NCBI GenBank assembly: GCA_020073565.1 | Contig: JAIQEY010000006.1 | Coordinates: 1-64,000, forward strand | Length of the DNA: 64,000 nucleotides | Reading direction: 5' to 3' | Source: Terriglobia bacterium | GTDB lineage: Bacteria; Acidobacteriota; Terriglobia; Terriglobales; Acidobacteriaceae | Shown: positions 30,829 to 34,882 of the stretch, in pieces | Position numbering within the stretch: position 1 is the first letter of the stretch | Layout: every line of letters begins with the position of its first letter | Notes under the pieces: model-generated | Databases searched by the model: none | The model's input: only the letters and a program-made list of their open reading frames with translations | What the model was told of the DNA's origin: nothing | Position numbers and translations under genes: made by a program

Positions 30829-32940
30829 ATGGCAGATGTGATTCGTCAGAAACCGACCGTGGTGATGGAGACCACCGAGGCTCAGATCGCAGTTCACTGG
30901 CGGGAGGAAGAATACTACTATCCTTCCGCGAAATTTGTCGGTCAGGCCAATCTGACCGATCCCAACGTCATTGAACGCTTCAGTGAGAAAAATTACCCAG
31001 AGTGCTTCCGGGAATACGCCGATCTACTGACGTGGGACAAGTACTGGGACACAACCCTCGACACCAGTGATCCGCCGTTCTGGAAGTGGTTCGTGGGCGG
31101 CAAGATCAACGCCTCCTATAACTGCGTGGACCGCCACCTTGCGAAGTACAAGAACAAAGCGGCGCTGATCTTTGTTCCGGAACCGGAAGGCGAAGCGCCC
31201 GTATCCGTCACCTACCGCGAACTCTATGTGCGAGTGAATGAATTCGCGGCGCTGCTGCGCGATTTCTGCCATCTCAAGGCCGGAGATCGCGTCACCATTC
31301 ATATGCCGATGGTCCCCGAATTGCCTATTACCATGCTGGCCTGCGCGCGCCTGGGGATCATTCACTCGGTGGTGTTTGGGGGCTTCAGCGGCGAGGCTTG
31401 CGGGATGCGCGTGGCCGATTCGGCCAGCCACGTCCTGATCACGATGGATGGGTACTATCGCAATGGCAAGCTGCTCGACCACAAGGCGGCCGCTGACATT
31501 GCGCTGGAGATTTCCAAGAAGGAAGGCCATGCGGTGGACAAGGTCCTGGTCTGGAGGCGGCACGCCGGACAGAATGCGTCCGCTTCGCCCTTTGTGAAGG
31601 GCCGTGACTTCTTCATTGACGAAGTGCTCCCGAATTTCTCGGGTGAAATCGTGCCTCCCGTTCCCATGGAGTCGGAAGCCCCGCTGTTTCTGATGTACAC
31701 CAGCGGCAGCACTGGCAAGCCCAAAGGCTGCCAACACCGCACCGGCGGCTACCTGGCCTACGTGACCGGCACCTCCAAGTACATCCAGGACATTCATCCC
31801 GAGGATGTTTACTGGTGCATGGCCGACATCGGCTGGATCACGGGTCATTCCTACATTGTTTACGGTCCGCTCGCCTTGGCTGCGACCAGTGTTATCTACG
31901 AAGGCGTGCCCACTTATCCCGACGCGGGCAGGGTATGGAGAATCGCCGAGCGTTTGGATGTCAACATCTTCCACACCTCGCCCACGGCCATTCGCATGTT
32001 GCGCAAGGCCGGCCACGATGAACCTCCCAAGTACAACTACCATTTCAAGCACATGACCACGGTGGGAGAACCCATCGAACCCGAGGTCTGGCGCTGGTAC
32101 TACGAAACCGTCGGCAAGCGCGAGGCGGTCATTGTCGATACCTGGTGGCAGACCGAGAACGGCGGCTTCCTGTGCAGCACGAAACCCGCACTCGATCCCA
32201 TGAAGCCGGGCAGCGCCGGCCCAGGCATGCCAGGCATCTACCCCATCGTCCTCGACGAAATGGGAGAAGAAGTGCACGCCGGTTCGGGGAAGGCGGGCAA
32301 CATCTGCATCCGCAATCCCTGGCCCGGGATCATGCAAACCATTTGGGGTGATCGCGAGCGCTTCGTCTATCAGTACTACAAGAAATACTGCAAGGATCCC
32401 AAGAGCAAGGACTGGCGCGACTGGCCGTATTTTGCGGCGGACGGAGCCGTGCAGGCCGTGGATGGTTACTTCCGCATTCTCGGACGCGTGGATGACGTCA
32501 TCAACGTCGCCGGACACCGCCTGGGCACAAAGGAAATTGAGTCGGCGTGCCTGACGATTCCGGAGGTGGCAGAAGCAGCCGTGGTGCCGGTGGTGGACGA
32601 GATCAAGGGCCGCGTGCCCGAAGTCTATATCGCCCTGCAGCCCGGTCTCGTGTCCACTCCGGAGATTATCGACAAGGTCAACAAGGTAATCGAGACCATG
32701 ATTGGCAAGATTGCCCGACCGAAACGGATCCACGTGGTTCCGGATATGCCCAAGACTCGTTCGGGCAAACTCATGCGTCGTGTTCTTGCCGCCGTCTCCA
32801 ACAACATGAACACGGGAGATATCACAACCTTGGCCAATCCTGACGTGGTGGAAAAGGTTCGGGAAATGGTCCAGGGCAAAGAGCCGGTGGCATTGACAGA
32901 CGGACCGGAAGACTTGAAGAAATTCGGGACTGTCGATTAA
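30829..32940 (+). CDS. acs: Acetyl-CoA synthetase (AMP-forming)
   Basis: 703 aa. Adenylate-forming enzyme: N-terminal ACAS_N (about 35-100), the ATP loop YTSGSTGKPKG (about 289-299), DTWWQTENGG, then GRVDDVINVAGHRLGT and the catalytic C-terminal Lys in PKTRSGKLMRR, which is the usual acetylation-control site. It is slightly longer than E. coli Acs (652 aa), with an insertion in the region around 525-545 (YKKYCKDPKSKDWRDW). It activates acetate to acetyl-CoA and lies 276 bp after the OFA transporter, with a terminator downstream. Confidence 0.95.
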   Translation: MADVIRQKPTVVMETTEAQIAVHWREEEYYYPSAKFVGQANLTDPNVIERFSEKNYPECFREYADLLTWDKYWDTTLDTSDPPFWKWFVGGKINASYNCVDRHLAKYKNKAALIFVPEPEGEAPVSVTYRELYVRVNEFAALLRDFCHLKAGDRVTIHMPMVPELPITMLACARLGIIHSVVFGGFSGEACGMRVADSASHVLITMDGYYRNGKLLDHKAAADIALEISKKEGHAVDKVLVWRRHAGQNASASPFVKGRDFFIDEVLPNFSGEIVPPVPMESEAPLFLMYTSGSTGKPKGCQHRTGGYLAYVTGTSKYIQDIHPEDVYWCMADIGWITGHSYIVYGPLALAATSVIYEGVPTYPDAGRVWRIAERLDVNIFHTSPTAIRMLRKAGHDEPPKYNYHFKHMTTVGEPIEPEVWRWYYETVGKREAVIVDTWWQTENGGFLCSTKPALDPMKPGSAGPGMPGIYPIVLDEMGEEVHAGSGKAGNICIRNPWPGIMQTIWGDRERFVYQYYKKYCKDPKSKDWRDWPYFAADGAVQAVDGYFRILGRVDDVINVAGHRLGTKEIESACLTIPEVAEAAVVPVVDEIKGRVPEVYIALQPGLVSTPEIIDKVNKVIETMIGKIARPKRIHVVPDMPKTRSGKLMRRVLAAVSNNMNTGDITTLANPDVVEKVREMVQGKEPVALTDGPEDLKKFGTVD

Positions 32941-33082: not shown

Positions 33083-33235
33083 CTAGTTCTTTGCGGAACC
33101 GTCTTTTTTCTTTGCGGGGTCGCCGACCTCGCACGCCCCGCTGCGTCAGGTGGGAACGCCCAGCTTCGGAAGAACCCATTGGGTCAGCACGAGCCAGGCG
33201 ACGATAAACAGCGCGAGTCCAAGCCACTGATTCAT
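33083..33235 (-). CDS. Candidate small membrane selenoprotein with an in-frame TGA
   Basis: ATG at 33235 opens a 29-codon frame with one membrane helix (LGLALFIVAWLVLTQWVLP) ending ...KLGVPT and then TGA at 33146-33148. The same frame then continues for 20 codons, RSGACEVGDPAKKKDGSAKN, to a TAG at 33083. Read through, the product is 50 aa: one N-out or N-in helix, PT-U-RSGAC (Sec30 and Cys35), and a Lys-rich tail. The continuation has protein-like composition, and a SECIS-type hairpin with a GGU loop starts 5 nt after the TGA. Sec30 and Cys35 could form a selenenylsulfide redox pair next to the membrane. The Shine-Dalgarno is weak. It lies 50 bp below the PilZ gene. No selA, selB, selC or selD lies in the window. 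If the TGA is a true stop, it is a 29-aa single-helix peptide. Confidence 0.62.
33114..33141 (-). promoter_or_regulatory. Putative bacterial SECIS element
   Basis: Counting from the base after TGA, nucleotides 5-32 fold as a six-pair GC stem (GCGGGG / CCCCGC), a bulged A, three pairs, a bulged G, two pairs and an AGGU apical loop. The loop GGU lies 18-20 nt after the TGA. From memory, in E. coli fdhF the essential apical GGU sits about 19-21 nt after UGA, so position and loop agree well. Confidence 0.6.
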
Positions 33236-33285: not shown

Positions 33286-34401
33286 TCAATGCGATTCCAG
33301 AGCCTGGCGCTGCTGCTCCATGTGCTGAAGGAAAATCTCGACCGGAACTTGAGATTTGTCCCGGAACAGACCGACCAGGGCATCGTCGGCGGTAGATGCC
33401 GACTCCGCTGCTTCCGTGTCGGCGGTTGACGTGTCCAGACCTTCAGGGGCGACCTGAAGCTCGGGTGCCCGCTCCTGGTTAGAGCGCAAGTACTCGACCA
33501 TCTGATGGACCTGGTCCCGCTGCTCTGGGGTGGCTTGAATGAATTCCACTCCCATCCCGAATTCCGGATGCGTAACCCGCACGATGCCTCCGGCGCGAAT
33601 CTCAAAATCGTTGGTCGTCATGGAAAGGACAACGCGGGTTCTCATCGGGAAGGGCGAGCTTGTTTTTAGGTAGCAGCCGCCTAGACTGAGATCGGTGAGG
33701 CTACAGCTTACTGGCGGGTCATCCTGTTCCGGTTCGGGAAGTTGGTTGTTCAGCCACTGGCGGAGGGTGTTGCGCTGCTCTTCGGTGACGTCCTTGAAGC
33801 GCACGCCCGCCTGATTGCCGCTGCCTCCCCACGCCATCTCGCCACAGATTTCAAGTCTCCGGTCCAAGCCCGGCAATTCGAGAGAAAACCGGAGTGTGTT
33901 TTCTTTGACAATACGCCCCGAAAACTGAATGGCCATGCCGCCTTCGCAAAGGTCGAGCGTCTTGGCCCGGTATTGGTTGGAGCCATTGCATTCCACTGGA
34001 ACTTGCACGGCAACCCGCAATTGGAGTCTCCGCTCGCGCTTCATGAGGGCCCGGACGGCACGGAAACTGCCTTTTGTGCGTTCCCCGGAGAGCGGCTTGT
34101 GGAGGACAAAATGGGCTCCCATTTCAAATCCGCCACGCAGTCCAACCGAGGACTCCACCAACGCGATCGACAGTGCTCGCTGGTTAACCGGAGAGGCTTT
34201 TGCGCTCCGCAACACGCTGCTGGCTTCCTCTGCGTTCGAACAATCGACGATAATGGCTTCGAAGCGCTGGCGAGTAATTTTGCGGATGGCTGCGTCGGCC
34301 TCGGAGCAGTGTTCGACCCCGATTTCAAGGTCGCTGAGGACGCGGCGAAGAACCCGTACAGTCTTATCGTCGGAACTCAATAATAGCGACTTCAGACTCA
34401 T
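33286..34401 (-). CDS. Receiver-like plus tandem PilZ domain protein
   Basis: 371 aa from ATG 34401; an upstream in-frame start at 34422 exists. Residues 1-115 have a receiver-like fold (SLLLSSDDKTVRVLRRVL, then AIIVDCSN, then VLHKPLSG with the Lys-Pro pair). Two PilZ domains follow. The first (about 120-220) has RRLQLR and DLCEGG, a match to RxxxR and (D/N)xSxxG with Ser changed to Cys. The second (about 230-320) has DLSLGGCYLK but no clear RxxxR. It probably senses c-di-GMP through the first domain. The C-terminus (about 320-371) is acidic and helical. There is no nearby diguanylate cyclase. Confidence 0.82.
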   Translation of the reverse strand: MSLKSLLLSSDDKTVRVLRRVLSDLEIGVEHCSEADAAIRKITRQRFEAIIVDCSNAEEASSVLRSAKASPVNQRALSIALVESSVGLRGGFEMGAHFVLHKPLSGERTKGSFRAVRALMKRERRLQLRVAVQVPVECNGSNQYRAKTLDLCEGGMAIQFSGRIVKENTLRFSLELPGLDRRLEICGEMAWGGSGNQAGVRFKDVTEEQRNTLRQWLNNQLPEPEQDDPPVSCSLTDLSLGGCYLKTSSPFPMRTRVVLSMTTNDFEIRAGGIVRVTHPEFGMGVEFIQATPEQRDQVHQMVEYLRSNQERAPELQVAPEGLDTSTADTEAAESASTADDALVGLFRDKSQVPVEIFLQHMEQQRQALESH

Positions 34402-34882
34402 GCTTCGCCAACGCCGATCCAACTCGATTTGCCGAGCGCCGCTTCCGGCTTCGAAAGCGGATTATCGTGATTACCCTCTGCCATTTCACTCTAAGTGTAT
34501 GAGATTCCGGGATCAATGCCATGGCCTGATCTTCCGGTTACTCTGGTCACCCGCCTCTAGTGAACCACTCTCAGATCCCATCGGCTGGAGGGCTCCTCCC
34601 TTGAATCGAGGGTTGTGGGCCGCGTCCCCCGCCAGAGGACTGCTCTGCAAGTGGCTGGATGGAAAGGGGATATGCGGGGGGGACTGACTAAAACGATTTT
34701 TCTATTGACAAATGGAGGGAAACCTATTATTATCAATAGCTTCCAAGATAGCTGGCGGGCTAGAGGTGAGATCTCGCTTTCCTTTCTTTGGGCGTGAATC
34801 CCTGCAGCGAATTTTGGAATCAAACAGGTAAGAGACTGAACGCGTAGTCCTCATTCCAATTCAACAAGAGGGTATATTTTTC
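34402..34882. other. 481-bp intergenic region
   Basis: Divergent promoter region between the PilZ gene (minus) and the small protein gene (plus). No supported ORF. A near-consensus promoter for the plus gene lies at 34705-34733, giving that gene a leader of about 140 nt. Local AT content rises sharply after 34690. Confidence 0.5.
34705..34733 (+). promoter_or_regulatory. Near-consensus sigma-70 promoter
   Basis: TTGACA (-35, perfect), 17-bp spacer, TATTAT (-10, five of six). The best promoter match I saw in the window; transcription would begin near 34740. Confidence 0.7.

Follow-up and report, generated by a model that had tools for sequence, protein, structure and literature searches.

The locus raises one question: does the TGA that follows the first 29 codons of a small minus-strand frame, within the 64,000-nucleotide stretch analysed here (the window), end translation, or is it read as selenocysteine (Sec)? 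From the ATG at 33235 the minus strand reads MNQWLGLALFIVAWLVLTQWVLPKLGVPT, the TGA at 33146-33148, RSGACEVGDPAKKKDGSAKN, and finally the TAG at 33083-33085, i.e., a frame of 50 codons (33083..33235, minus strand) with the TGA at codon 30. The initial annotation had described the continuation of this frame past the TGA, a Cys five residues after the presumed Sec, and a product that gene callers would truncate. All three points were borne out: the frame stays open to the TAG, the two residues are Sec30 and Cys35 (33131..33133, minus strand), and calling with translation table 11 ends the product at residue 29. The upstream neighbour is a PilZ-domain gene on the same strand (33286..34422), which ends 50 bp before the ATG; the window and the homologous loci L010 and L011 are the only ones with a PilZ-domain protein next to the gene on its strand. 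A convergent long frame opposite the gene (30829-32940) resembles, by eye, acetyl-CoA synthetase.

Hydropathy predicts a single transmembrane helix at residues ~4-22 (33170..33226, minus strand). The best 19-residue hydropathy value is 2.05 in the window protein, and it is at least 1.6 in 135 of 142 members of the family described below. The helix runs into the core motif L-P-K-L-G-V-P-T-Sec (33146..33172, minus strand), and the motif is followed by a soluble, Lys-rich tail comprising residues 31-50 (33086..33145, minus strand).

A first search covered 61 genomes (the window's own and 60 relatives) and gave some match at E<=1 in 46 of them, the weak ones being mostly chance. At E<=0.03, 25 family-like loci were found including the window, 24 with a single in-frame TGA and one (L018) with Cys. 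By profile search, the family is present in at least 94 of the 396 genomes searched from the window's phylum (Acidobacteriota) and in at least 25 of 282 from the phylum to which G449 belongs (a MAG titled Deltaproteobacteria); the genome counts are lower bounds, since a limited number of candidates was scored per genome. In the phylum of G450 (titled Chloroflexi) it was seen in 2/386 genomes, once as a Cys form and once as a weak match with TAG, and no relative was found in the viral contigs searched. Eight loci came from named genomes: five (L047-L051) were retained, L052 runs off the end of its stored stretch and was left uncounted, and L053 and L054, which match over ~20 residues only (L053 inside a 906-aa frame), were set apart. 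Genome G702 carries two family copies on one contig (L190), and G087 two divergent copies (L122, L123). Many loci are from related genomes, so the locus counts given below are not independent events.

At the Sec position, the codon is TGA in 135 of the 145 loci, Cys (TGC or TGT) in nine, and unclear in one. Automatic parsing covered 142 of them (133 TGA, 5 TGC, and 4 TGT), with neither TAA nor TAG at this position in any parsed locus. The parser missed L121, L174, and L194, which were inspected one by one. L174 and L194 have TGA at the Sec position, with the T of the motif replaced, and L121 (genome G349) shows a matching frame without a TGA. Homologues with Cys exactly at the TGA thus exist, and those that carry a name are Bryobacteraceae, Bryobacterales, or Acidobacteriia MAGs.

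The constant core of the family is [LF]P-x-x-G-x-x-T-U/C. P, G, T, and Sec/Cys occur in 142/142 parsed members (P was a requirement of the parsing expression, which allowed three letters each at the G and T places), with T directly before Sec/Cys in every one. A start codon lies 29 codons ahead of Sec in 102 of the 142, at 28, 30, or 31 codons in 31, and at none of these distances in nine. The Cys at +5 is frequent, not universal (94/142): 42 members have no Cys at +2 to +7, and one branch reads T-U-A-V-P-x-P-R-R, without the +5 Cys. A fixed U-xxxx-C pair is therefore not an essential motif, and the redox-type motif PT-U-RSGAC proposed for this site stands for the window, as Sec30/Cys35, but not as a rule of the family.

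Homologues that conserve the extension after the TGA were found, and the tail is conserved across the codon. Between the window and L010 (72% identical), pS is 0.60 and pN 0.17 downstream of the TGA, with 0.65 and 0.11, respectively, upstream of it. In eight pairs compared downstream of the TGA, pN is lower than pS in six and equal to it in two (L108-L019 and L012-L014). The constraint is weaker downstream of the TGA than upstream.

The bacterial SECIS model presented with a 2026 inventory of prokaryotic selenoproteins places the loop 16-37 nt from the UGA, with a G among the first two loop bases and a minimum free energy (MFE) of <= -7.5 (PMC13188914). In the 45 nt from the TGA of the window, the hairpin with an AGGU loop that had been noticed right after the TGA (33114-33141, minus strand) is indeed the minimum-energy fold, and its values (16 nt from UGA to loop, -17.7 kcal/mol) lie within this model. 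Compared with shuffled sequences the fold has a z of -1.82 (10/200 shuffles are as good). The window's best fold departs from the register of the family; an alternative hairpin with a GGC loop (33113-33133) is nearer to the register of the homologues, and the two folds together delimit the SECIS within the coding region at 33113..33141.

Across the family, stem length proved a stronger test than folding energy. As controls, 200 random re-codings of each post-TGA peptide were made, using the codon usage of sequence outside the hairpin. The best rule-fitting stem of the 133 Sec forms has on average 7.2 bp vs 4.4 bp in the re-coded controls (z 19), and stems of at least 6 pairs are found in 110/133 where 32.9 are expected. 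For the nine Cys forms the values are 3.9 vs 3.3 bp (z 1.1), which is not significant, with few sequences and low power. The commonest closed loops (A-GUC-U, C-GGUC-G, C-GGC-G, and A-GGA-U) fit the early-G loop as the published model describes it (PMC13188914). Covariation was counted in 43 hand-picked Sec loci of 127 distinct Sec stretches, chosen after a set of folds had been seen, mostly of the commonest spacing and with few off register (the window among these); the counted structure comes from the same sequences. A stem table of 48 loci, chosen for their pairing, is left out of the evidence. All six stem pairs in this set show changes on both sides, with 37 double-change cells vs 12.4 in shuffles (0/500 shuffles as high), and pairing is 80.3% in register vs 28-48% with the partner slid. 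Further pair types in the 43 loci are not above the shuffles (13 vs 12.0; 166/500 as high). The folding energy, tested against the re-coded controls, does not separate Sec and Cys forms (p 0.36): the mean z is -0.87 for Sec forms (109/133 below 0) and -0.56 for Cys forms (7/9 below 0). Among single sequences, L107 (z -3.74) and L089 (z -1.21) have negative values, and the folds of L010, L011, and L025 are on a par with dinucleotide shuffles (z -0.12, -0.07, and 0.10, respectively). An Rfam scan of 501 bases around the gene returned one match only, far below the cut-off. In a Bryobacterales Cys form with TGC (L049:5088-5130) a SECIS-like hairpin is kept by eye, with one mismatch, apparently as a relic of a Sec-to-Cys change.

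The genome of the window holds selA, selB, selC, and selD, all over their cut-offs: the tRNA-Sec (selC) scores 71 bits (cut-off 47), SelB 368.8 (242.25), SelA 545.9 (267.9), and SelD 361.2 (125). The SelD gene itself (G000:C2:17091-18107; L087, L088) has an in-frame TGA inside, so the SelD of this genome is likely also a selenoprotein. A second tRNA-Sec match in the same genome, at 47.4 bits just above the cut-off, is probably another tRNA. With presence defined as E<=1e-60, SelB occurs in 256/396 genomes of the phylum and in 89/94 genomes with the family. When G054, which has a Cys form and lacks SelB, and G349, which has no TGA, are removed, 92 Sec-form genomes remain of the 94; 88 of these 92 have SelB, vs 168 of the 304 others (Fisher p 6e-15). 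Three of the Sec-form genomes without SelB (G113, G175, and G184) have a tRNA-Sec above the cut-off; the fourth, G427, has no SelB at E<=1e-60 and a tRNA-Sec score of 46.7, below the cut-off of 47. G054, which is 99% complete, has neither SelB nor tRNA-Sec over the cut-off. This co-occurrence of the Sec form with SelB is the pattern expected of a selenoprotein family.

Against this background, the reading of the TGA as some other residue, e.g., under an altered genetic code or through a suppressor tRNA, which the open frame alone would also fit, is next to impossible, because all nine non-TGA parsed loci have Cys, TGA ends other genes such as the upstream PilZ gene, and the full Sec machinery and a SECIS are present. 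It is also extremely improbable that the TGA is an ordinary stop closing a 29-residue peptide, with the downstream frame open by chance. The hydrophobic part alone would be plausible as a tiny membrane peptide, the tail is short, and a weak match in another phylum (L203) has TAG at the Sec position. The distribution of TGA and Cys over the 145 loci, with TAA and TAG missing from the parsed ones, speaks against a stop, as do the conservation of the tail across the codon, the excess and covariation of the SECIS stem, and the link to SelB. Both readings are rejected. The window frame almost certainly encodes a selenoprotein, in which the UGA at codon 30 would be read as Sec by SelB and tRNA-Sec, directed by the coding-region hairpin just after it.

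Decoding follows a known mechanism, and what is new is the family with its genomic neighbours. The window protein matches no model of NCBIfam 20.0 or Pfam at E<=1. For 18 members, NCBIfam 20.0 gave only one unrelated model, in one member (E 0.31), and no selenoprotein model, and the Pfam matches were to five unrelated families, none of them in more than two members (best E 0.0084). The 2026 inventory counts 119 families and subfamilies, and no Sec motif in its Table 1 matches P-x-L-G-V-P-T-U with an optional U-xxxx-C (PMC13188914); this comparison is weak, as the table lists motifs only as short strings and leaves some families with a dash, and the NCBIfam scan is the test at the level of sequence. 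No earlier description was found in the literature searched, the scope of which excluded preprints and most subscription papers. The family is apparently undescribed and broadly distributed. It resembles the families of the inventory, as they are presented there, in its in-frame UGA, bacterial SECIS, Cys homologues, and presumed redox role (PMC13188914).

A recurrent neighbour is DUF302 (PF03625; PDB 1j3m, 1q9u), a separate soluble domain of obscure function, which is found near or fused to the gene in 34/142 loci, always within 819 bp and in 33 cases on the same strand. Its proximity has a p of 2e-18, where 30% of the flank bases lie within 1 kb; the profile was built from six neighbours and many loci have a flank of only 1.5-3 kb, so that a DUF302 farther away may have gone unseen, and the p is rough. 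Pfam confirms the domain in six sampled neighbours. Two Cys-form loci fuse the microprotein to DUF302 (L189:2596-3114 and L200:2645-3229, on the minus strand of each), and these fusions point directly to the two as a working pair. The DUF302 neighbours have two conserved cysteines, in LGAC (33/34) and LPCN (34/34), both of which recur in PDB 1j3m. An obligate partnership with DUF302 is excluded, since the domain is absent from 13 of 24 genomes in which no DUF302 lies near the family gene, and the copy of the window genome is on another contig. One report places DUF302 in sox clusters and speculates on a role in trithionate oxidation (PMC5037610).

Rhodanese matches occur in 21/142 loci, within 1 kb in 18. 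Four rhodanese neighbours were confirmed by Pfam: two are short proteins with lipoprotein-like starts, one lies behind a pyridine-nucleotide-disulfide reductase, and one behind a metallo-beta-lactamase domain. From domain make-up and general knowledge, we take genes near family members to be persulfide-dioxygenase-like and CoA-disulfide-reductase-like. ArsR matches are found in 24/142 loci, 13 of them within 200 bp and on the same strand, and an ArsR-type HTH was confirmed by Pfam in two neighbours. DsbD and thioredoxin (Pfam) stand beside the Cys form L047, and OsmC was confirmed by Pfam in two neighbours. In L107, L108, L127, and L128, from the genus and family of the window, the gene is preceded at 224-251 bp by a large gene whose size fits an RND pump, and more pump-like genes lie past that one (both by eye).

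The family protein is very probably a true selenoprotein of the anatomy described above, a judgement that does not extend to its chemistry. The frame, the Cys replacements, the SECIS, the machinery, the co-occurrence with SelB, the adjacencies, and the fusions are computational results; topology and chemistry are inferred. Basic residues average 0.15 before the helix and 3.85 after it, and the C side exceeds the N side in 142/142 members. By the positive-inside rule, these basic residues behind the helix would place the C-terminus inside, and this topology, predicted from charge, is likely. It agrees with the DUF302 neighbours, which by eye start without an evident signal peptide, and with the fusions, which put DUF302 on the C side. 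The product would thus be a single-pass membrane microprotein with its N-terminus outside and its C-terminus inside. At the cytoplasmic face, ~seven residues beyond the helix, the turn P-x-L-G-V-P-T-U would hold the Sec, ahead of a basic flexible tail.

Three kinds of chemistry were weighed for such a selenol. A role as a membrane-bound peroxide or lipid-peroxide reductase is improbable. Sec is well suited to peroxide chemistry, L096 and L118 have OsmC-like genes immediately upstream, and L102 has a universal stress protein upstream; on the other side, OsmC matches only 4/142 loci (with a profile from two neighbours), and 50 residues would leave no space for a known peroxidase domain. The main rival to sulfur or thiol chemistry is efflux-linked metal binding, in which the selenoprotein would assist the export of metals or metalloids (by RND pumps, under ArsR control) and bind the metal via Sec/Cys. 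An RND-pump-size protein is seen by eye in 12 loci at 224 to ~5400 bp, just upstream in L107, L108, L127, and L128; a membrane-fusion protein in L114 is HlyD by Pfam, and the ArsR-type regulators would suit such a role. Pump genes adjoin the gene in fewer loci than those with DUF302 and rhodanese close by, DUF302 is even fused to the microprotein, and the +5 Cys, which could complete a metal site, is often absent; a metal-binding role is rather unlikely, less so than that of a peroxide reductase.

Sulfane-sulfur or thiol-disulfide chemistry is favoured by the rhodanese, persulfide-dioxygenase-like, and CoA-disulfide-reductase-like genes nearby. The window's own neighbour counts against a sulfur function: it is PilZ, which is outside the set of recurrent sulfur-linked neighbours, and no sulfur gene. 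We consider thiol or persulfide chemistry a moderate inference, with about an even chance of being correct, and a direct partnership with DUF302, where the two genes are adjacent, somewhat more probable than that. In sulfur or thiol chemistry of this kind, the membrane-anchored selenol might handle sulfane sulfur or thiol disulfides and exchange sulfur or electrons with a cytoplasmic partner, which in some lineages may be DUF302 with its two conserved cysteines and/or a rhodanese, and this partnership could be under ArsR-type control. A more specific scheme, a selenol relay, is put forward tentatively: the Sec at the inner face would accept sulfane sulfur (or electrons), which would then be handed on to rhodanese and to the cysteine pair of DUF302.

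SELENOK and SELENOS are eukaryotic single-pass membrane proteins whose Sec lies in a charged, disordered tail in the cytosol. The architecture proposed here is like theirs by analogy only: they belong to another domain of life and differ in SECIS type, in size, and in sequence, and no SELENOK or SELENOS Pfam model is among the matches of the 18 members at E<=1. The U-xxxx-C of the window has the spacing of the C-xxxx-C disulfide of the thioredoxin reductase type; the pair is missing from many family members.

The family adds a very small bacterial selenoprotein to those known, with the Sec placed in a single-helix membrane microprotein, and it occurs in about a quarter (at least 94/396) of the sampled Acidobacteriota genomes while having no model in the libraries searched. 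Through the DUF302 neighbourhood and the fusions, it also offers a way into the role of a widespread uncharacterised domain and into the use of selenium by these bacteria. If the selenol relay is true, it would be a selenium-dependent persulfide-handling module common to Acidobacteriota and a second phylum, a lead to the function of DUF302, and a bacterial architectural counterpart of SELENOK and SELENOS.
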